From a virus, in IMG/VR virus record IMGVR_UViG_3300037493_000213, positions 1 through 23,289 of that record: DNA of 23,289 nt, one strand, 5' to 3'. The position numbers were made by a program, and so were the translations under genes. Numbering within the stretch: position 1 is the stretch's first letter; each line of letters begins with the position of its first letter. Shown piece after piece: positions 2,748-22,090 of this stretch. The notes below the pieces were generated by a model. That model was not told the origin of the DNA and ran no database searches. It saw only the letters and a list, made by a program, of their open reading frames with translations.

Positions 2748-4951
2748 TGGACTACACAGGCATAGCCGCAGCCGGTGCTGTGGCCAACGGCGGCAAGCAA
2801 AAAGGCTCAGAATCTAATGTCTTGGCGACTGCTCGCTCGCGTTTGGACATGGCCATTGGCGCGCTGTCTGAGTCTCGTCAAGATGAGATTGATGACCTGA
2901 AGTTCTACGCTGGCTCACCCGACAATCGCTGGCAGTGGCCAGCGGATGTGCTGGCCACCCGTGGCGCTGTGCAGGGTCAGACAATCAACGCCAGACCGTG
3001 CCTGACGATCAATAAGCTGCCCCAGCACGTCAGACAAGTAACCAATGACCAAAGGCAGAACCGCCCAAGTGGCAAAGTTATCCCAGCCGATGACCACGCA
3101 GACATTGAAGTCGCAGAAATCTTCAACGGCATGGTCAGGCACATCGAATACATCAGCGACGCTGACGTCGCCTACGATACGGCGTGTGAAAACCAAGTCT
3201 CCTACGGCGAAGGCTACATCCGCATCCTGACCGAATACTGCGACGAAAACACGTTTGACCAAGACATCAAGATTGGCCGTGTTCGCAACTCATTCAGCGT
3301 CTACATGGATCCAACGATCCAAGACCCGACCGGCGCGGACGCCAATTGGTGCTTCATTACTGAAGACATCACCAAAGACGAATACCAGCGGATGTACCCC
3401 GACTCTGCGCCCATCACCACCTTGCAAACGCTGGGTGTGGGTGACCAAAATTTGAGCCAATGGCTCATGGAAGACACTGTCCGCGTTGCTGATTACTACT
3501 ATGTAGATTACGACAAAGCAACGCTTAACCTGTACCCTGGGAACGTGACCGCATTTGAAGGCACCCTAGAGGACAAACAACTGAAAGCAATTTATGGCAA
3601 GCCTAAAAAATCTCGTGAATCTGATCGTGTCAAAATTAAATACTGCAAGATTAATGGTTATGAAATTCTTGAAGAACGCGATTGGGCGGGGAAATACATC
3701 CCCGTAGTTCGCATTGTTGGCAATGAATTTGAGGTCGATGGCCGCTTGTACGTGTCTGGCCTTGTGCGTAACGCCAAGGATGCCCAGCGCATGTACAACT
3801 ACTGGGTAAGCCAAGAAGCCGAAATGCTAGCGTTGGCACCCAAGGCACCGTTCATTGGCTACGGCGGCCAGTTTGAAGGTTATGAGACTCAGTGGAAGAC
3901 AGCCAACACGACCAACTGGCCGTATTTGGAAGTCAACCCAGACGTGACCGACGGCCAAGGTGCGGTGTTGCCGTTGCCTGCCCGTGCCCAGCCGCCAATG
4001 GCGTCGAGTGGTCTGTTGCAAGCCAAAGCTGGCGCGTCTGAAGACATCAAAGCGTCTACTGGCCAATACAACGCATCCTTGGGTATGACATCCAACGAGC
4101 GCAGCGGCAAAGCCATTTTGGCTCGCCAGCGCGAGGGCGATGTGGGCACTTACCACTACGGCGACAACTTGGCTCGCGGTGTGCGTCACATTGTGCGCCA
4201 GTTGGTGGACTTGATCCCCAAGGTGTACGACACCCAGCGCGTGGCTCGCATTATTGGTGTGGACGGTGAAACCGACATGGTCAAGTTAAACCCTGACCAA
4301 CCTGAAGCCGTTCGCAAGATTACCGATCAGAACAACCCTGACATCGTGATCGACAAAATCTACAACCCCAACGTCGGCAAGTACGATGTGGTGGTGGCGA
4401 CCGGCCCAGGCTACGCAACCAAACGCCAAGAAGCGTTGGAAGCAATGGCTCAACTGTTGCAGGGTAATCCGCAACTGTGGTCTGTGGCCGGTGACCTGTT
4501 CGTGAAGAACATGGACTGGCCTGGTGCTCAAGAGATGGCCAAGCGGTTTGCCAAGACCATCGATCCTAAGCTCATGGAAGACGGCGACAAGCCACCAGAG
4601 TTGCAAGCGGCTGAACAGCAGATGCAGGCGATGGGTCAAGAGCTTGATCAACTGCATGAAATGCTTAAGAACGTCGGCAAGTCGATTGAAGCGCAAGACA
4701 TGCAGCGCAAAGATTTTGAAGCTGAAGTTAAGATGTACGAAGCCGAAACCAAGCGGATCGCTGCGGTGCAGGCAGGCATGAGCGAGCAACAGATTCAAGA
4801 TATTGCCATGGGCGTGGTTGCTGCGGCGATGGAATCGCAAAATATGGCTAATGAAATGCCTGAGATGCGTGAAGAGTCTATGCCTATGGAGATGATGCCA
4901 CCAGAGCAAGAAATGATGCCACCTGAACAACAAATGGGAATGCCACAATGA
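2747..4951 (+). CDS. Portal protein (P22-like)
   Basis: Dodecameric portal at the head vertex, 734 residues, similar in size to P22 gp1. The early segment reads as a long alpha/beta protein with the DEIDDLKFYAGSPDNRW and VTNDQRQNRPSGKV motifs common near the N-terminus of P22-type portals. The last part (about residues 614-700) is rich in Gln, Glu and Lys and predicted to be coiled coil, as expected for the barrel. The end (about 700-734) is unusually rich in Met, Pro and Glu. The start follows the terL stop by 18 bp and overlaps the MAKKK mini-ORF stop. The end overlaps the next gene as ATGA. The position between terL and the scaffold supports the call. Confidence 0.93.
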   Translation: MDYTGIAAAGAVANGGKQKGSESNVLATARSRLDMAIGALSESRQDEIDDLKFYAGSPDNRWQWPADVLATRGAVQGQTINARPCLTINKLPQHVRQVTNDQRQNRPSGKVIPADDHADIEVAEIFNGMVRHIEYISDADVAYDTACENQVSYGEGYIRILTEYCDENTFDQDIKIGRVRNSFSVYMDPTIQDPTGADANWCFITEDITKDEYQRMYPDSAPITTLQTLGVGDQNLSQWLMEDTVRVADYYYVDYDKATLNLYPGNVTAFEGTLEDKQLKAIYGKPKKSRESDRVKIKYCKINGYEILEERDWAGKYIPVVRIVGNEFEVDGRLYVSGLVRNAKDAQRMYNYWVSQEAEMLALAPKAPFIGYGGQFEGYETQWKTANTTNWPYLEVNPDVTDGQGAVLPLPARAQPPMASSGLLQAKAGASEDIKASTGQYNASLGMTSNERSGKAILARQREGDVGTYHYGDNLARGVRHIVRQLVDLIPKVYDTQRVARIIGVDGETDMVKLNPDQPEAVRKITDQNNPDIVIDKIYNPNVGKYDVVVATGPGYATKRQEALEAMAQLLQGNPQLWSVAGDLFVKNMDWPGAQEMAKRFAKTIDPKLMEDGDKPPELQAAEQQMQAMGQELDQLHEMLKNVGKSIEAQDMQRKDFEAEVKMYEAETKRIAAVQAGMSEQQIQDIAMGVVAAAMESQNMANEMPEMREESMPMEMMPPEQEMMPPEQQMGMPQ

Positions 4952-5316
4952 CACACAAAGCCGCTGATTTTTTAGGCTTGCTGTTTCTAGCACGGGACGT
5001 GGCGCACAGCGTTCATTTGAACACCCGCAGCTTCAGCAAGCACGACGCACTTAATATTTTCTATGCTCGCATTGTTGGCGCAGCAGATGATTTTGCTGAA
5101 GCGTACCAAGGCCGTCATGGTTTGATTGGCCCAATCACTTTGCATTCGGCAAAGAAGACTTCCAACATCATTGAGTTTTTAGAAAGCTCGTTGGCTGAAA
5201 TTGAAGAGGCTCGGTATAAGGTTGCCGACAAGTCAGATTCGTCATTGCAACAGTTGATAGATAATATTGTTGAAATCTATCTTCGCACTTTGTACAAACT
5301 GAAATACTTAGCATAA
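4948..5316 (+). CDS. Small Dps/ferritin-like four-helix protein
   Basis: Protein of 122 residues in a family widespread in phages and usually left unnamed (it resembles the DUF5856 type). Predicted all-helical. Residues H20, H32, D47 and E51 have spacings of 12, 15 and 4. This is exactly the spacing of the E. coli Dps ferroxidase ligands H51, H63, D78 and E82. The local DDFAE (47-51) resembles Dps DTMAE, and the residue before H20 is Ala as in Dps. A ferritin-like fold with iron or peroxide handling, or DNA association, is inferred from this. The protein is shorter than Dps (about 165 residues) and lacks a Lys-rich DNA-binding tail. It starts on the portal stop (ATGA) and lies in the head operon, so it may be packaged or be a late host-protection protein. 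Confidence 0.6.
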   Translation: MTHKAADFLGLLFLARDVAHSVHLNTRSFSKHDALNIFYARIVGAADDFAEAYQGRHGLIGPITLHSAKKTSNIIEFLESSLAEIEEARYKVADKSDSSLQQLIDNIVEIYLRTLYKLKYLA

Positions 5317-9333: not shown

Positions 9334-10775
9334 TGCAAACGCCGATTCTTGGTGCAAGCTATGTTGCTCGCAGCATCAACGCTGCCAACAATCGCATGGT
9401 GAACCTGTACCCCGAAGCCACGCCAGACAACGGTCAGACGGCGGCTTTTCTAACGCGCTGCCCTGGGTTGGATTTTTTGCAAACAATCGGCACCGGCCCG
9501 ATCAGAGCGCTTTGGGCACATCAGACCAACGGGTCTGACTTTTATGTGGTGTCAGGTTTGGAAGTCTATAAAGTTACGGGCATGACCGCCGTGCCTACTT
9601 TGCTTGGTACCGTAACCGGCACTGGCCCCGTGTCCATTGCCGACAACGGCACCCAGATATTCTTTGCCTGCAATCCTGATAGTTACATTTACAACGAAGT
9701 CACCAACGTGTTTGCCCAGATCACTGATCCAGATTTCCCTGGCGCGGTGACTGTAGGCTATCTAGACGGCTATTTTGTGTTTAATGAGCCAGACAGCCAA
9801 AAGGTGTGGGTGACGTCGCTGTTGGACGGCCTGTCGGTCGATCCGTTGGATTTTGCTAGCTCTGAAGGCTCACCCGACGGTTTGGTGGCGCTCATCGTAG
9901 ACCACCGTGAAGCCTGGTTGTTTGGTACCGATTCTGTTGAAGTCTGGTACGACGCTGGCTTGGCTGACTTCCCGCTCACCCGCATCCAAGGCGCGTTTAA
10001 CGAAATTGGCTGCGTGGCTGCGTTCTCTGTAGCCAAGCTCGACAACGGTTTGTTTTGGCTGGGCACCGATGCCCGTGGCCAAGGCATCGTCTACCGTGCC
10101 AACGGCTACACCGGCCAACGGGTGTCCACCCATGCTATTGAGTACGCAATTGCTCAGTACAGCGACATTTCAGACGCGGTGGCCTACACCTACCAGCAAG
10201 AAGGCCATGCTTTCTATGTGCTGACGTTCCCTACCGGCAACGCCACATGGGTGTTTGACGTGGCTACCCAAGCATGGCACGAACGTGCTGGCTGGGACAA
10301 CGGAGAATTTACCCGTCACCGATCCAATTGTCAGTGCAACTTTGGTGGCAACACCATCGTGGGCGACTTTGAAAATGGCAACATCTACCAGATGACGTTG
10401 GATGTCTACGATGACTATGATGAGCCTCAAAAATGGCTGCGCTCATGGCGGGCGCTGCCTAGCGGTCAAAACAACCTCAAACGTACCGCGCACCACAGTT
10501 TGCAGTTAAATTGCGAATCAGGTACTGGGTTGGCCACCGGTCAAGGCGACGATCCTCAAGTCATGTTGCGCTGGTCTGATGATGGCGGCCATACTTGGAG
10601 CAATGAGCATTGGTCACCGATGGGCAAGATCGGGGCGTACTATCAGCGCGTCTTTTGGCGGCGGCTTGGCATGACGCTCAAGCTGCGGGACAGGGTTTAT
10701 GAAGTGTCTGGGACTGATCCTGTAAAGGTCGCCATCATGGGCGCTGAATTGATTCTGAGCCCGACCAATGCCTGA
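9333..10775 (+). CDS. Packaged DNA stabilisation protein (P22 gp10-like)
   Basis: Neck or plug protein of 480 residues, close to the 472 of P22 gp10, which closes the portal channel after packaging. The N-terminal RSINAANNRMVNLYPE motif is a hallmark of this family. The rest is beta-rich with repeated Trp and aromatic blades (AWLFGTDSVEVWYD; NGLFWLGTD; NATWVFDVATQAWHER), suggesting a beta-propeller. The start overlaps the adaptor stop by one base, and the end overlaps the fibre gene by 8 bp. The gp4-gp10 order is as in P22. Confidence 0.9.
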   Translation: MQTPILGASYVARSINAANNRMVNLYPEATPDNGQTAAFLTRCPGLDFLQTIGTGPIRALWAHQTNGSDFYVVSGLEVYKVTGMTAVPTLLGTVTGTGPVSIADNGTQIFFACNPDSYIYNEVTNVFAQITDPDFPGAVTVGYLDGYFVFNEPDSQKVWVTSLLDGLSVDPLDFASSEGSPDGLVALIVDHREAWLFGTDSVEVWYDAGLADFPLTRIQGAFNEIGCVAAFSVAKLDNGLFWLGTDARGQGIVYRANGYTGQRVSTHAIEYAIAQYSDISDAVAYTYQQEGHAFYVLTFPTGNATWVFDVATQAWHERAGWDNGEFTRHRSNCQCNFGGNTIVGDFENGNIYQMTLDVYDDYDEPQKWLRSWRALPSGQNNLKRTAHHSLQLNCESGTGLATGQGDDPQVMLRWSDDGGHTWSNEHWSPMGKIGAYYQRVFWRRLGMTLKLRDRVYEVSGTDPVKVAIMGAELILSPTNA

Positions 10776-12654
10776 ACAACTTAATATAACGAACCTACCT
10801 TCGTCGCGGGTTGAGTTTATCGACCCCCGCACGGGGTTGATGTCGCGTGAGTGGTATCGGTTCTTTTTGAACTTGTTTACCTTGACCGGCGGCGGCAACA
10901 ACCAGACATCTTTGGATGACTTGCAACTTGCGCCGCCATTCGTACCCGCAACTGCGGGCGGCGGTTCAGGCACGGTCACATCGGTTGATGTGTCTGGCGG
11001 CACCACAGGGTTGACTACTACTGGTGGCCCGATTACCACCAGTGGCACGATTACATTTGCCGGTATTTTGAATATCGCCAACGGCGGCACAGGAGCCTCA
11101 ACGGCGGCAGGCGCTCCCTTTGCGCTTAAAGGTGCCAACGCCGACATTACCAGTTTGGCGGGGCTTACCGGCCCTATCAGCAGCCCAACCTATGTGCAAT
11201 TTGGCAGCGGATCAGGTACGACTTTGGCCGCTGGCCGCATGTGGTACGACGAAACTGTTGGCTCGCTAAATTTTGGTATGGGTAATGGCAACATCACCCA
11301 GCAAGTTGGTGAAGAGCTATTTATTTACGGCAAAGCCTCTGCGGCAATTACAGACTCCCCACTACAGATTGTTTACCATACCGGCACGGTAGGAGCCAGC
11401 GGAGTTATTACGTTTGCGCCTACGATTGCAGGAATTACAAACGCAAACGACATTGTTGGCGTAGCTACTGAATCGTTGGCGCTTAATGATTTTGGGCGAA
11501 TCACAACTTATGGTTTAGTGCGTGGCATTACAACTAACGGTGCTGCTTTTGGTGAAACTTGGGCTGATGATGACGAAATTTGGTACAACCCTGTAACTGG
11601 CAACCCTACCAATGTTGAACCGGTTGCGCCTAACATTAAGATGCAAATTGGCATTGTGGTTAATGCAGGGTCTGGTGGTTCTGGCTCGTTTCAAGTGGGA
11701 TTGCAACGTGGCTCAAAACTTGGTGGCACTGACTCCAACGTGCAGTTTGGCACCTTGGCCAACAACAACCTGATCGCCTACGACAGCACGTTAGGCTATT
11801 GGAAGAACGTCACCGCAACCACTTTGGGTTTAGGTACGGTCACTTCGGTTGCGGCGACTGTTCCTTCATTCCTATCAGTTACCGGCTCACCTATCACAAC
11901 TTCAGGTACTTTAGCCATTTCCTATTCAGGGACGGCTTTGCCGGTTGCCAACGGCGGCACAGGCACGGCCACACCCGCGCTGGTTGCAGGCACCAACGTC
12001 AGCATCACCGGCACTTGGCCAAACCAGACAATCAATTCCAGCAACCCAGGCGGCACGGTTACTTCAGTGGCGGCTACGGTGCCGTCGTTCTTGTCGGTCA
12101 CCGGTTCACCGATTACTTCGTCCGGCACCTTGGCCATCGCCTATTCGGGAACGGCTTTGCCTATTCTGAACGGCGGTACAGGTCAGACGACTGCCGCCGC
12201 CGCATTCAACGCCTTGTCGCCCATCACTAGCACTGGTGACCTGATCATTGGAAACGGCACCAACAGCGCCACAAGGTTGGCCATTGGGGCCAATAACTAC
12301 GTTCTGACATCCAACGGCACCACGGCGACATGGGCGGCGGCCAGCGGCAGCGGGGCAACAATCAGCAATGACACGACAACGGCCACCAACATCTACCCTT
12401 TGCTGGCCAACGCCACTTCTGGTTCGGTGGCTACGGTTTACACCAGCAATGCCAACTTGTTGTACAAGCCATCTACGGGCGAATTCTTGGCTCAACAATT
12501 TAACGCGGGCAACGGAATTTACGTCAACAGCAAAACCATTTCTACAAGTTACACTATAGCTACTGGAAATTCAGGCATGTCGGCTGGGCCGATCACCATT
12601 GCTAGCGGTAAGACAGTGACAGTCTCGTCAGGTTCCCGCTGGGTTGTTTTGTAA
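10768..12654 (+). CDS. Long tail fibre protein with beta repeats
   Basis: Predicted host-recognition fibre, 628 residues. The N-terminus (residues 1-30, including SREWYRFFLNLFT) is a short attachment segment seen on many phage fibres. A middle domain (about 137-340) is the beta module with GLVRGI and ADDDEIWYNPVTG. Three copies of a GTVTSV...NGGTG repeat start at residues 68, 356 and 429; the last two are 44 residues each and nearly identical. The C-terminal 39 residues end in SGSRWVVL and recur in the fibre at 19605-20354. It overlaps the preceding gene by 8 bp and has no clear Shine-Dalgarno, so coupling is likely. Confidence 0.85.
   Translation: MPEQLNITNLPSSRVEFIDPRTGLMSREWYRFFLNLFTLTGGGNNQTSLDDLQLAPPFVPATAGGGSGTVTSVDVSGGTTGLTTTGGPITTSGTITFAGILNIANGGTGASTAAGAPFALKGANADITSLAGLTGPISSPTYVQFGSGSGTTLAAGRMWYDETVGSLNFGMGNGNITQQVGEELFIYGKASAAITDSPLQIVYHTGTVGASGVITFAPTIAGITNANDIVGVATESLALNDFGRITTYGLVRGITTNGAAFGETWADDDEIWYNPVTGNPTNVEPVAPNIKMQIGIVVNAGSGGSGSFQVGLQRGSKLGGTDSNVQFGTLANNNLIAYDSTLGYWKNVTATTLGLGTVTSVAATVPSFLSVTGSPITTSGTLAISYSGTALPVANGGTGTATPALVAGTNVSITGTWPNQTINSSNPGGTVTSVAATVPSFLSVTGSPITSSGTLAIAYSGTALPILNGGTGQTTAAAAFNALSPITSTGDLIIGNGTNSATRLAIGANNYVLTSNGTTATWAAASGSGATISNDTTTATNIYPLLANATSGSVATVYTSNANLLYKPSTGEFLAQQFNAGNGIYVNSKTISTSYTIATGNSGMSAGPITIASGKTVTVSSGSRWVVL
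11833..12183 (+). repeat. Two 132-bp coding repeats in tail fibre gene
   Basis: Repeat units 11833-11964 and 12052-12183 encode almost the same 44 residues but differ at many third positions. The protein sequence therefore seems to be held by selection while the DNA has drifted. A more diverged copy lies at 10969-11097. The units probably form repeated shaft turns of a trimeric fibre. Confidence 0.8.
12535..12651 (+). repeat. Fibre C-terminal module, copy 1 (SGSRWVVL)
   Basis: This 39-codon module matches the last 39 codons of the gene ending at 20354, with about 25 identical residues. Both end in RWVVL and both directly precede the stop. A shared end module on two fibres suggests a common trimer cap, chaperone site or receptor-contact piece. 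Confidence 0.75.
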
Positions 12655-12665
12655 AAGGTGCTTCA

Positions 12666-13001
12666 ATGACTGTAACTGCCAAAAATCTAGTGCCAGCCAA
12701 AACCGTTGAGGCGACTCAGACAACGCAATACACGGCCAATGGTGTAACCACGATCATTGACAAATTCACAGCCACCAACTACAGCGGTTCTGCGGCCACC
12801 ATCAGCGTCAACTTAATCACCGCCACGGGCACCGCCAGCAACGACAACTTGATTGTCAAAGCCAAATCCTTGGCTGCATCTGAGACTTATATCTTTCCTG
12901 AGCTTGTTGGCCACATCTTGCCATCTGGCGGGTTTATCTCCACAATCGCAGGCACAGCCAGCGCCATCAACATGCGCGTCAGCGGAAGGGAAATCTCGTG
13001 A
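12666..13001 (+). CDS. Small beta-sandwich protein, fibre-associated
   Basis: Protein of 111 residues with alternating strand-like segments (TTIIDKFTATNY; AATISVNLI; DNLIVKAKSL), resembling a single Ig-like or jelly-roll domain. There is no signal peptide or membrane segment. The Shine-Dalgarno AAAGGTG lies eight bases after the fibre stop region, and its own stop overlaps the GTG start of the glycosyltransferase. A role as a fibre or tail component, or as a surface decoration, is inferred from position. No specific family is claimed. Confidence 0.65.
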   Translation: MTVTAKNLVPAKTVEATQTTQYTANGVTTIIDKFTATNYSGSAATISVNLITATGTASNDNLIVKAKSLAASETYIFPELVGHILPSGGFISTIAGTASAINMRVSGREIS

Positions 13002-13870
13002 CCGTTGTCATTCAGACTTACTGCGAACACCCCGCTTTGGCCTACGGCGCTTTGATGGTGTTTAAAACATTGCGCGTGGGATTTCCCACCGCAAAAGTAC
13101 TTGTTGTTGATAACGGAAGCCACCCAGACGTATTGCCTCAAATAAAAAAAGCAGCCCTCGACGCCGGATGCTTGTTTACGCCCGCGCCGCGCCAGCATTT
13201 TTTAGATTTCTACCGCTGGGTATTGTTTGAGCAGACCGCCATGACTTCGATAGTTTTACTTGATCCTGACGTAGTGTTTTGGAACAACGTAGAGCATTGG
13301 AAATTTGACGGCTTAATGGCAGGCAGACTCATTCCTGACCTCTACAATTACGGCGTGACTTCTTTGTCTCGGCTGCACCCTAGTTATCTATGGGTGCCAG
13401 ATGTGGCCAAGCTGCGTCAAGCATTAGCAAATACACACGCTAATGGCTTTGATCCTTTGCGTCAGTTTTCCGCGCCAGCCAACGGCAAAATGTATTTCTG
13501 GGACACCGGCGCGGGTCTGTACCAAGCGTTAGCCACCAAATGCGATTCATTCTCTGACGCGCAACTTGATTGCTACGATCACTTATTTTATGGCTCCCAT
13601 CTTCCTGTTGTGCAACCCGCGTTAAACGATGAAAACTTAACGTACTTTGCCCATCAGGCCGCAGCAGGAAATGACTTGACTGCGCTTAAAGGCATTTGGC
13701 GCGAACAAGATAAGCACTTTAAATCACAACGTCAAAAACCTTTGCGTGGTGAAATGATGTTGGCTGAAATGATTAAAACTTGCAAAACTTTAGGCCAAGC
13801 ACAAGGAATTGAAAGCGGATACGATGTTGCGGTAGAAGGCTTACTTAGTAACATAAAGGCTCAACTATGA
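12998..13870 (+). CDS. Glycosyltransferase, GT-A type
   Basis: Predicted nucleotide-sugar transferase, 290 residues. The N-terminal Rossmann-like half starts with VVIQTYCEHPALAYGALM and VLVVDNGSHPDV (residues 34-45), the usual GT2 nucleotide-binding pattern. The DxD metal motif is D89-P90-D91 in VLLDPDVVFW. The C-terminal part contains FWDTGAGLYQAL (168-179), as in acceptor-side regions. The start is GTG at 12998, overlapping the previous stop (GTGA); the end overlaps the next ATG (ATGA). Donor and acceptor cannot be read from sequence. Targets could be virion protein, host surface glycan or a metabolite. It stands between fibre and ejection genes, an unusual place for an enzyme. Confidence 0.82.
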   Translation: MTVVIQTYCEHPALAYGALMVFKTLRVGFPTAKVLVVDNGSHPDVLPQIKKAALDAGCLFTPAPRQHFLDFYRWVLFEQTAMTSIVLLDPDVVFWNNVEHWKFDGLMAGRLIPDLYNYGVTSLSRLHPSYLWVPDVAKLRQALANTHANGFDPLRQFSAPANGKMYFWDTGAGLYQALATKCDSFSDAQLDCYDHLFYGSHLPVVQPALNDENLTYFAHQAAAGNDLTALKGIWREQDKHFKSQRQKPLRGEMMLAEMIKTCKTLGQAQGIESGYDVAVEGLLSNIKAQL

Positions 13871-14742
13871 GCAATTTAACCAAGCAAGAAGACGTCGGCC
13901 AACTGGTTTTGCGTGAGCTTTTGAGCTTAGAAAAGCCTGAGCAAACGCTTTTGCAGTTGCCGCAAGTCGAATGCTCTGTCGTGCATCACTTTGGCCCTGG
14001 GGTGTGTATCCGTGAGGTTTTCATGCCTGCGGACACTTTGGCTATTGGCCATAAACAAAAATTTGACCACCTAAACATTATGTTGCGCGGCAAAGTAATG
14101 ATTGTTACAGACGACGGCAGCACCCAAGTATTGACTGCGCCGATGATCTTTACCGGCAAAGCTGGCCGCAAGATAGGGTACGTTTTGGAAGATATGGTAT
14201 GGCAAAACATCTACGCCACTGAGTTGACAGACCCAGACGCGGTGGAAGCTGTTTTTATTGAAAAAAGCGAAGATTGGATGCAAGACCAACAATCTAAACT
14301 GGCAATTGAAAAGCTAACCCGTGTAGACGACCGTAAAGATTACTTTAACTTGCTTGACGAATGCGGTATACCTCATGAGTTGGCCAGACAGCAGTCTGAA
14401 AACGAATACGATCAAAGATGGGTTGATAGCCAAATTACTCGCGTAGCTGAGTCGCCCATAGAAGGTAAAGGTCTATTTTTGACTTCACCAGTAAAATCAG
14501 GCGACATTATTTGCGCGGCCAGAATAGACGGGTACCGAACACAAGGTGGTCGATTTACCAACCATTCAAAAACACCAAACGCAAAAATGGTTATGCTGCC
14601 TAACGGCAACATCGATCTTGTTGCGCTAGTTGACATTGAAGGATGTAAAGGCGGCGCTATGGGTACTGAGATAACAATTGACTACCGGCAAGCCTTGGCG
14701 CTGTCAGGTATTGAATTTAAGGAGTCAGCATGTCAGCAATAG
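13867..14742 (+). CDS. Cupin-SET fusion, predicted protein-lysine methyltransferase
   Basis: Two-domain protein, 291 residues. Residues about 30-120 form a cupin-like beta barrel, with GHKQKFDHLNIMLRGKV (61-77) resembling cupin motif 1. Residues about 190-281 are a SET domain: GKGLF at 200-204, the NHS-xx-PN signature at 232-238, and EITIDY with the expected catalytic tyrosine Y273. SET domains transfer methyl from S-adenosylmethionine to lysine. The Cys-rich pre- and post-SET parts found in many eukaryotic enzymes are absent, as in short viral SET proteins. The start overlaps the glycosyltransferase stop as ATGA; the end overlaps the next gene by 13 bp. The substrate is unknown: a capsid, fibre or host protein. 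The SET call is firm; the function of the cupin half is open. Confidence 0.82.
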   Translation: MSNLTKQEDVGQLVLRELLSLEKPEQTLLQLPQVECSVVHHFGPGVCIREVFMPADTLAIGHKQKFDHLNIMLRGKVMIVTDDGSTQVLTAPMIFTGKAGRKIGYVLEDMVWQNIYATELTDPDAVEAVFIEKSEDWMQDQQSKLAIEKLTRVDDRKDYFNLLDECGIPHELARQQSENEYDQRWVDSQITRVAESPIEGKGLFLTSPVKSGDIICAARIDGYRTQGGRFTNHSKTPNAKMVMLPNGNIDLVALVDIEGCKGGAMGTEITIDYRQALALSGIEFKESACQQ

Positions 14743-15401
14743 CAACAGCAATTGTCGCCAGTTCTTACATGGGTTCAAAGGCGGCAGAAAGAGGCGCGAA
14801 CACGCAAGCCGAAGCAATGGATCGTTCTTCGGAATTGCAATACAAACAATACAAACAAGACGTTGCAAGACAAAAACCGTTTTATGACGTAGGCGTCAAT
14901 GCATTGCCGGAACTGGTTGAAGCGTCAAAATACAAAAATTTTGGTATGGATCAGTTTCAAGCTGATCCAGGTTACGCATTTCGTTTGAGCGAAGGCACAA
15001 AAGCCTTGGAGCGATCCGCTGCCGCCCGTGGTGGTTTGCTGTCTGGCGGCACTGGCAAGGCGCTTACGCGGTTTGGCCAAGAAATGGGCTCGCAAGAGTA
15101 CACCAACGCATTCAACCGCTATCAGGCCGAGCGTACCGCTCGTCTGCAACCTTTACAAGCGCTGACAGGCATGGGCCAAACCACTGCCCAACAAATAGGT
15201 CAGCAAGGTCAGCAGATGGCGTCAAATGTTGGCGACGCTATGGGCAGCAGTGCTGCGGCAAGAGCATCGGGGTATGTTGGCAGCGCAAACGCTTTGACCG
15301 GCGGTTTGAATACGTATTTAAACTACACAAACAGTCAAAATTTGGTAAACGCATTAGGCGCGCGTAATGCAGGGCAAGTTACTCCTGGTTACTACGCATA
15401 A
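14730..15401 (+). CDS. Ejection / internal virion protein (short)
   Basis: Predicted DNA-ejection protein, 223 residues, of a type common in podoviruses next to two longer internal proteins. The N-terminus has a weakly hydrophobic helix (IATAIVASSYMGSKAA). The middle has the PGYAFRLSEG motif followed by the ARGGLLSGGTGKAL segment, recurrent in this family. The rest is helical and rich in Gln and Ala. Its strong Shine-Dalgarno (AAGGAG) lies inside the end of the cupin-SET gene. In P22, gp7, gp16 and gp20 leave the head to make a channel in the cell envelope; the same work is inferred here from order and composition. Confidence 0.78.
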   Translation: MSAIATAIVASSYMGSKAAERGANTQAEAMDRSSELQYKQYKQDVARQKPFYDVGVNALPELVEASKYKNFGMDQFQADPGYAFRLSEGTKALERSAAARGGLLSGGTGKALTRFGQEMGSQEYTNAFNRYQAERTARLQPLQALTGMGQTTAQQIGQQGQQMASNVGDAMGSSAAARASGYVGSANALTGGLNTYLNYTNSQNLVNALGARNAGQVTPGYYA

Positions 15402-19604: not shown

Positions 19605-20354
19605 ATGGCTGGCTTAACCCCCTCACCCAAACAGCAGATTTTCGGAACGGATGGCCTGCCTCTTGTCGGCGGCAAAATCTACACCTACGCGGGCGGTACT
19701 TCGACGCCTATCGCTACCTACACCGACTATGGTGCTGCTACGGCCAACACCAACCCGATCATCTTGGACTCGCTTGGCCAAGCCAACATTTGGTTGATTA
19801 ACACCACCAGCTACAAGTTCATAGTCAAAGACGCCGACGATGTGTTGCTCTACACCGTAGACAACATCTCCATTCCCTTAGACTTCTCCGCGTTTGCCTC
19901 GCCCCCGCCCATTGGAGACACCACACCCAACACCGGCGCGTTCACTACGCTGACGGCCAGTGGCGCCGTAGCATTTGCCACAACCTTGGGCGTGACCGGC
20001 GCGGTGACCTTGGGCAGCACCTTGACGGTTGCTGGCCAACTGACCTTAAACAACACCGGTGCCGCCAAACTGAGCGCGGGCACTACCGGCCAGCGCCCCA
20101 CACCCGTCACTGGCATGGTGCGCTACAACTCCACAGACGGCAAGTTTGAAGGCTACGGCGCAACAGCTTGGGGTGCCTTGGGCGGTGGCGCAACTGGCGG
20201 CGGCGCTGACCAGGTGTTTGTGGAGAACGGCCAGACTGTGACCACAGACTATACTCTCAGCACTGGCTTTAACGCAATGTCTGTTGGCCCGATCACTGTC
20301 AATAGCGGCATCACTGTCACTGTCCCCTCCGGCGCTCGCTGGGTTGTTCTGTAA
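19605..20354 (+). CDS. Tail fibre protein with P22 tailspike-type head-binding domain
   Basis: Short fibre or adaptor, 249 residues. Residues about 8-90 resemble the head-binding domain of P22-like tailspikes (QIFGTDGLPLVGGKIYTY, then TANTNPIILDSLGQANIW and SYKFIVKDADDVL). A Gly/Thr-rich beta shaft follows. The last 39 residues ending SGARWVVL match the end of the fibre at 10768-12654. No endoglycosidase domain is present, so it probably anchors or extends rather than cuts glycans. The Shine-Dalgarno GAGG is good. It opens a four-gene cluster of beta-rich receptor-type proteins. Confidence 0.82.
   Translation: MAGLTPSPKQQIFGTDGLPLVGGKIYTYAGGTSTPIATYTDYGAATANTNPIILDSLGQANIWLINTTSYKFIVKDADDVLLYTVDNISIPLDFSAFASPPPIGDTTPNTGAFTTLTASGAVAFATTLGVTGAVTLGSTLTVAGQLTLNNTGAAKLSAGTTGQRPTPVTGMVRYNSTDGKFEGYGATAWGALGGGATGGGADQVFVENGQTVTTDYTLSTGFNAMSVGPITVNSGITVTVPSGARWVVL
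20235..20351 (+). repeat. Fibre C-terminal module, copy 2 (SGARWVVL)
   Basis: Second copy of the module at 12535-12651. Both code for GPIT and RWVVL at the same places, and both lie directly before a stop. The two copies are about 7.6 kb apart and share protein rather than close DNA identity, so the split is old. Confidence 0.75.
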
Positions 20355-20363
20355 AGGAAATAT

Positions 20364-20942
20364 ATGTCATCAGTCGTTATTTCGGGGGATACCAGCGGGG
20401 CTATCACAGTATCAGCGCCTGCTGTTGCGGGTACAAATACGCTGACTTTGCTTGCCGCCACTGCGACCAATTCTGTCAATGTTTTGTCAACAGCGGTTGC
20501 GAGTACATTAGGCACTTCTATTAATTTCACAGATTTGCCAGCGTGGGTGAAGCGGATTACTGTGATGCTTCAAGGTGTGTCTTTATCCTCAACAGCGCAA
20601 ATTTTGGTTCAGTTAGGGACTGGCGCAACACCTACATACACAATAACTGGATATCTTTCAAGCAGTGGGGCTGTATCCGGATCAACTGCTGTTTCAAATG
20701 TTACTTCAGGATTTAATGTAAGAACAGACTCGGCTGCACAAATTGTTTCTGGAATTATGACTATAGTAAATATTACAGGTAATTCTTGGGTATCTAGCCA
20801 TTCAGCAAAACAATCATCAAGCACCGTAATTCTTGGTGGTGGTGATGTTTCATTAGGCGCAGTGCTGACCGCTGTTCGCATTACATCGACAAGCACAGAC
20901 ACCTTTGACCTTGGCACTATCAACATTCTGTACGAAGGATAA
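20364..20942 (+). CDS. Beta-rich receptor-type protein, paralogue A
   Basis: Protein of 192 residues, dominated by Ser/Thr/Val strands. A core starting TSINFTDLPAWVKRITV and ending TFDLGTINILYEG is shared with the gene at 21563-22090. The pattern suggests a beta-sandwich head domain of a fibre. There is no catalytic motif. It has a strong Shine-Dalgarno (AAAGGA), two bases separate it from the next gene, and it follows directly on the SGARWVVL fibre. A part in host recognition is inferred from position and from the paralogy. Confidence 0.7.
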   Translation: MSSVVISGDTSGAITVSAPAVAGTNTLTLLAATATNSVNVLSTAVASTLGTSINFTDLPAWVKRITVMLQGVSLSSTAQILVQLGTGATPTYTITGYLSSSGAVSGSTAVSNVTSGFNVRTDSAAQIVSGIMTIVNITGNSWVSSHSAKQSSSTVILGGGDVSLGAVLTAVRITSTSTDTFDLGTINILYEG

Positions 20943-21562: not shown

Positions 21563-22090
21563 ATGAGTACCGTAATTGATGGTTCAGCAAGCGTCACGAT
21601 CAACTCTGGCGCAATTCTTGGCATTACCTCTGGCACTGCGGTTGCATCTACCAGCGGTACAAGCATTACGTTTAGTTCAATACCAAGTTGGGTTAAGAGG
21701 ATAACAGTTGGTTTTATGGGTGTTTCAACAAACGGTACTGCCAACATTCAAGTCCAATTAGGCGTTTCTGCAACAGCTATCATTACAGGGTATCTTGGCG
21801 GTGCTTGGTCATCAAACACTAATAATACAGCTTTTACAACGGGATTCGGATTAACGGCTGCAAATGCTGCAACTAGATTTCAATATGGGAATATGACTTT
21901 GACAAATATGTCGGGAAATCTTTGGACGGCAACGGGAGCTGTATTTGATGCATTTTCAAGCGCTGCAAGTGTTAGCGGTGGGCATATTTCTTTAGGTGGA
22001 GTATGCGACTCAATAAGAATTATTGCAAGTACTACTGGTGCCCCCGCTGATACCTTTGACGCTGGTTCAATAAACATTCTTTACGAGTAA
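21563..22090 (+). CDS. Beta-rich receptor-type protein, paralogue B
   Basis: Protein of 175 residues and a clear paralogue of the protein at 20364-20942. They share TAVAST-GTSI-F and PxWVKRITV (near residue 38 here), then VQLG, ITGYL, and the end TFDxGxINILYE. The N-terminal part differs, and the middle is shorter and richer in Asn. An AGGATAATCATG leader is shared with the gene at 20945. The pair probably arose by duplication and could bind related or alternative receptors. No enzyme motif is seen. Confidence 0.7.
   Translation: MSTVIDGSASVTINSGAILGITSGTAVASTSGTSITFSSIPSWVKRITVGFMGVSTNGTANIQVQLGVSATAIITGYLGGAWSSNTNNTAFTTGFGLTAANAATRFQYGNMTLTNMSGNLWTATGAVFDAFSSAASVSGGHISLGGVCDSIRIIASTTGAPADTFDAGSINILYE

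Follow-up and report, generated by a model that had tools for sequence, protein, structure and literature searches.

The window analysed here is the whole stretch of 23,289 bases of an IMG/VR virus record and belongs to a P22-like short-tailed phage. Its head genes gave matches to a P22-type portal (1.3e-174), the head closure protein Hc3 (3e-133), and a major head protein (5e-73). A tRNA-Met gene (cat) lies at 689-763, directly ahead of the terminase region, and an ORF between portal and scaffold (4948-5316) matches phrog_858, "starvation-inducible transcriptional regulator" (1.5e-22), which is unusual in a head operon. Two different tail-region proteins (10768-12654 and 19605-20354) carry a near-identical C-terminal stretch, GPITI-SG-TVTV-SG-RWVVL. 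The products of 20364-20942 and 21563-22090, which are separated by a third protein, have WVKRITV... and ...INILYE in common and resemble diverged copies of each other. The features of the region that encodes a cupin-SET fusion protein are collected in Table 1.

Table 1. Features of the cupin-SET region, in window positions; aa, residues of the cupin-SET protein
Feature	Position	Strand	Remarks
Upstream ORF, called glycosyltransferase	12998..13870	+	ATGA overlap with cupin-SET; no family match
Cupin-SET protein	13867..14742	+	ATG start, intact, 291 aa
Cupin-like double-stranded beta-helix domain, ~aa 20-125	13924..14241	+	phrog_12032/phrog_24280; Foldseek 4e2g, 2.0e-5
Helical linker / pre-SET segment, ~aa 126-189	14242..14433	+	nearly invariant D182 (QSENxxDQ)
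Minimal SET domain, ~aa 190-282	14434..14712	+	GxG 200-202, NHS 232-234, EITIDY 268-273; SET-I almost absent
Ejection-gene ribosome-binding site (AAGGAG, 14719-14724) and start codon (14730-14732)	14719..14732	+	nested in cupin-SET 3' end, 13-nt overlap
gp7-like DNA-ejection protein, conserved downstream partner	14730..15401	+	phrog_598, 4.8e-42; weak P22_gp7 PF25688

The full-length protein is a member of phrog_34170 (2.7e-83 in a PHROGs search), an existing PHROG without assigned function, and the family is represented by 463 to 581 matching stretches in IMG/VR, on hundreds of metagenomic phage contigs. An AlphaFold model built with 63 aligned sequences reached a mean pLDDT of 94.8 and a pTM of 0.88, and a Foldseek search with this model recovered cupins and SET enzymes as separate matches. 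The two-domain observation is far beyond chance. The preliminary description, made from the letters of the DNA, had proposed a cupin fused to a SET domain with a complete signature, and both parts of that proposal were confirmed: the SET family of Pfam (PF00856) scores 24.5 bits against a cut-off of 22.4, the cupin belongs to phage cupin PHROGs, both folds were found by Foldseek, and the motifs SPIEGKGLF (residues 196 to 204), GRFTNHSKTPN (228 to 238), and EITIDY (268 to 273) are all present.

By sequence and fold, the protein is a member of the SET family. A profile built from seven SET modules of the cupin-SET group, searched against the PDB sequence set, matched human MLL1 (3.5e-12), EZH2 (2.6e-10), and vSET of PBCV-1 (1n3j; 2e-8), and among the structural matches were ASH1L (3.2e-5), from the S-adenosylmethionine-bound SET enzymes, as well as NSD1 and MLL1. 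The structure prediction and the comparison with viral SET enzymes that had been suggested as a check thus gave a confident SET fold and a vSET match, and profile, motifs, and modelled fold together support the earlier prediction of a lysine methyltransferase. We describe the product as a predicted protein-lysine methyltransferase with intact cofactor- and catalysis-signature residues, its activity being suggested by these residues.

The SET core is unusually compact. The second glycine of GxG and the asparagine of NH are 29 to 30 residues apart in 178 of 181 proteins, compared with 65 in MLL1 as taken from the SET profile alignment, and the segment from SET-N to RYxNH has about 10 residues where about 45 are usual, so that SET-I is nearly gone. 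In classical SET enzymes, SET-I helps to hold the substrate peptide and to form the peptide groove; its length varies, and it is not needed for membership of the family.

Comparison of 82 nonredundant cupin-SET proteins revealed that G200, G202, H233, E268, and Y273, positions outside the search pattern with which relatives were gathered, are invariant. S196, R224, G228, R229, and N232 are likewise invariant, but R224, T225, G228, R229, and N232 fall within that pattern, and their invariance is therefore partly due to selection of the sequences. Loss of the tyrosine and NHS motifs among close relatives had been named beforehand as evidence against a functional enzyme; N232, H233, E268, and Y273 were instead found in 100% of the 82 proteins, N232 with the search bias just mentioned. 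The signature residues stay invariant down to about 27% identity. Against L020, a relative that is about 92% identical to the window, the SET domain has a dN/dS of 0.025 and the cupin one of 0.032, and the gene is under strong purifying selection.

The N-terminal barrel belongs to the phage cupin families phrog_12032 (2.6e-31) and phrog_24280 (8.8e-28), and its best structural match among cupins, 4e2g, identifies it as a double-stranded beta-helix. The canonical metal motif HxH(x)3-4E ... H is absent from the domain in the 82-sequence alignment; the only well-conserved histidines are H40 (98%) and H68 (87%), a pattern unlike that of canonical metal cupins. Most phages with this cupin have no SET domain (48 of 56 phage records), and SET methylation is therefore dispensable for the genomic slot that the gene occupies. 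SET-less cupins were found in the same slot in eight loci (L004, L005, and L190 to L195), those of VPMS1, 1.067.O, 234P9, BA3, X14, VvAW1, ZP9, and Amaethon, which include Vibrio and Shewanella phages. In the T7-like Sphaerotilus phage SnaP-R1, the cupin gene is flanked by tail tubular B and a T7 gp14-family gene (PF24072), which is the place of T7 gene 13.

This slot is defined by the gene that follows it. With duplicates removed, the sequence past cupin-SET could be read in 120 loci, and 104 of these continue with a gp7-like ejection gene. Of the 12 classed as having another downstream gene, 11 have unrelated ORFs with the same ejection-like N-terminus (MS followed by a Gly/Ala-rich hydrophobic stretch). 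In the remaining four loci the ORF was called on the wrong strand, and for at least two of them (L001 and L006) annotation does give the downstream gene. The cupin-SET and ejection genes overlap by 13 nt in 56 loci and by 4 nt in 27. The linkage spans unrelated ejection families and genome layouts, and the upstream neighbors are more variable. In the window, the gene had been placed in a virion operon, between a glycosyltransferase and the ejection proteins. The operon and the ejection side stand, the downstream product being a member of the "DNA ejection" family phrog_598, and the glycosyltransferase label is tentative: 12998-13870 gave no useful match in Pfam, PHROGs, NCBIfam, or PDB sequences, and a DPD-like motif seen by eye (LLDPDVVFW, resembling GT-A glycosyltransferases) is all that speaks for the name. 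That ORF is present only in close relatives (11 loci, redundant) and is missing from that place in most cupin-SET phages.

Some ejection-like proteins encoded after the cupin are small, and three of them (L187:3814-4143, L189:5378-5713, and L007:7798-8130) have a common C-terminal motif, TMLTGxxGxxxxxLxLGKxxLLG, whose conserved lysine is a possible candidate substrate. In phage zth2-2, a GNAT acetyltransferase (PF00583; L007:8078-8566) is encoded two genes past cupin-SET, and a small ORF between cupin and SET in another locus (L187:4146-4508) is perhaps GNAT-like, with no family match. Acyl- and methyltransferase folds may thus share this neighborhood.

The counterpart of the slot in P22 is gene 14, annotated as "virion stability factor" or "head morphogenesis," and both P22 gp14 and T7 gp13 bear database names of scaffold or head-morphogenesis factors. 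Homology of the slot's occupants was considered and set aside, as phmmer searches with P22 gp14 and T7 gp13 gave no match to the cupin or SET loci. By eye, gp14 and gp13 had looked GNAT-like, but the AlphaFold model of P22 gp14 was poor (pLDDT, 52), and we make no such claim.

The two modules are arranged in several ways among relatives. The reversed order, SET-cupin, was found in six loci (L016, L111, L113, L116, L130, and L157), and at least L016, L130, and L157 have it at the cupin-SET slot. Cupin and SET are separate adjoining genes in Paraburkholderia ferrariae (L106); in L187 they are also separate, with about 1.2 kb between them. The SET of L104 is not fused to a cupin, and a single small gene stands between it and an ejection-like ORF downstream. 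Two apparent standalone SETs (L144 and L188) begin at contig edges and were left out of the count. On a tree of 78 SET modules, whose deep branches are weakly supported, at least eight architecture changes are required, fewer than with shuffled labels and more than the minimum of two. Fusion in both orders and occurrence as neighbors are a classical sign of domains acting together. Because the modules occur in both fusion orders and as separate genes, their arrangement implies that cupin and SET probably work together.

The explanation that we favor, at a little under an even chance, is that P22-like phages and their short-tailed relatives use cupin-SET as an assembly enzyme of two modules, which methylates virion lysines, most likely those of an ejection protein. 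The cupin would be the docking or assembly module, since the cupin alone fills the slot in many phages, and it would dock on the nascent ejection or assembly complex. Before packaging or in the course of it, the SET domain, with S-adenosylmethionine, would then methylate at least one lysine of a virion protein, the likeliest target being a member of the gp7/gp20/gp16 ejection set. SET would thus be an optional modification step added onto an ancestral cupin morphogenesis factor. The gene's location, its translational coupling, and the swapping of its modules suggest the ejection proteins or the assembly module as the target; a coat or fiber lysine or a host protein, which the preliminary description had offered as substrates, found no support. 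The near loss of SET-I, which normally aids binding of the substrate peptide, is an argument against this assignment, and the gene neighborhood may reflect a link in assembly rather than an enzyme and its substrate. A comparison of gp7-like proteins from 65 SET-bearing phages and 9 without SET revealed no invariant lysine specific to the former, and the gp7-like protein as substrate is therefore unsupported by lysine conservation.

Methylation might instead fall on a virion protein other than the ejection proteins (coat, connector, needle, or fiber), for example to stabilize the particle. The gene lies in a virion operon, and the P22 gene of the same slot is a "virion stability factor" in some records, but the tightest conserved linkage is to the ejection gene while the upstream neighbors vary more, and we consider such a target rather unlikely. 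A SET fold that is catalytically dead and serves assembly as a structural or cofactor-sensing module would accord with the near absence of SET-I; against it, the cofactor and catalysis signature is invariant to about 27% identity at a dN/dS of about 0.03, which makes this quite unlikely. Bacterial SET effectors that act on foreign proteins, such as Legionella RomA and Chlamydia NUE, are a precedent for methylation of a host protein early in infection by a packaged and ejected cupin-SET, and the gene's neighbors do encode proteins that the phage delivers into the cell. It is nevertheless encoded with structural genes, there is no sign that its cupin relatives are ejected, and the same-slot T7 gp13 and P22 gp14 have the scaffold and head-morphogenesis names given above; we judge such methylation of a host protein very unlikely.

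The names of the cupin families themselves, "short tail fiber protein" (phrog_12032) and "tail fiber adhesin" (phrog_24280), would make the product a short tail fiber or adhesin. These names derive from deposited annotation, however, and no underlying experiment was found; papers on Shewanella phage X14, VvAW1, and P26218 contained no mass spectrometry support for such a role. The place of the gene, beside the ejection genes, is that of an assembly factor, and a methyltransferase domain would be unexpected in an adhesin. We rejected this reading, whose basis is the database names, as highly improbable. A role in defense or counterdefense was also set aside after PADLOC gave no match.

If the assembly enzyme proposed here is real, a phage enzyme marks the proteins of its own particle, which would explain a gene family found in hundreds of metagenomic phage contigs; enzymology would be offered a very small SET core, and a poorly understood factor encoded just ahead of the podovirus ejection proteins would gain a testable role. 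The SET fold is best known from histone modification; here a stripped-down form of it is joined to a barrel and encoded beside the ejection proteins, which suggests, short of proof, self-marking of the particle by a phage. A wider proposal, which we put forward as a doubtful but serious possibility, is that in a widespread group of short-tailed phages a dedicated methyltransferase lacking SET-I, with a cupin for docking in cis or in trans, modifies ejection proteins before packaging at the gp13/gp14 slot, lysine methylation being part of building or firing the ejection machine.

Our search covered the open-access literature, where neither the fusion and its compact SET core nor the slot and the swapping of modules was found to be described; the same holds for lysine methylation of a phage particle by a phage enzyme. 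SET annotations in phages are on record: a "SET domain containing protein" of uncultured Caudovirales phages, MW202744, and ORF62 of Stenotrophomonas phage Ps15, annotated in passing (PMC9025141) and the one phage SET enzyme that the literature search turned up.

Compared with known systems, cupin-SET has the SET fold and the motifs GxG, R-[YF]-x-NH-[SA]-xx-PN, and E-x-T-x-DY in common with MLL1/KMT2A, ASH1L, EZH2, and PBCV-1 vSET, from which it differs in its fused phage cupin and its nearly absent SET-I. P22 gp14 (DUF2824) and T7 gp13 (PF11090) resemble it in standing directly before the first gene for an ejection or internal virion protein but differ in that no sequence homology was detected. 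The phrog_12032/phrog_24280 cupins (PHA00672) of Vibrio, Shewanella, and Thalassomonas phages are homologous to its N-terminal domain and occupy the same pre-ejection slot, without SET. The identical full-length architecture, in the same place, is that of phrog_34170 and is found in Rhodoferax phage P26218, Pseudoalteromonas phage PH1, phage zth2-2, MW202557, and MW202744, in whose records the protein is hypothetical or unannotated, or in one case automatically named "pbcV-1 histone H3-lys 27 methyltransferase structure."
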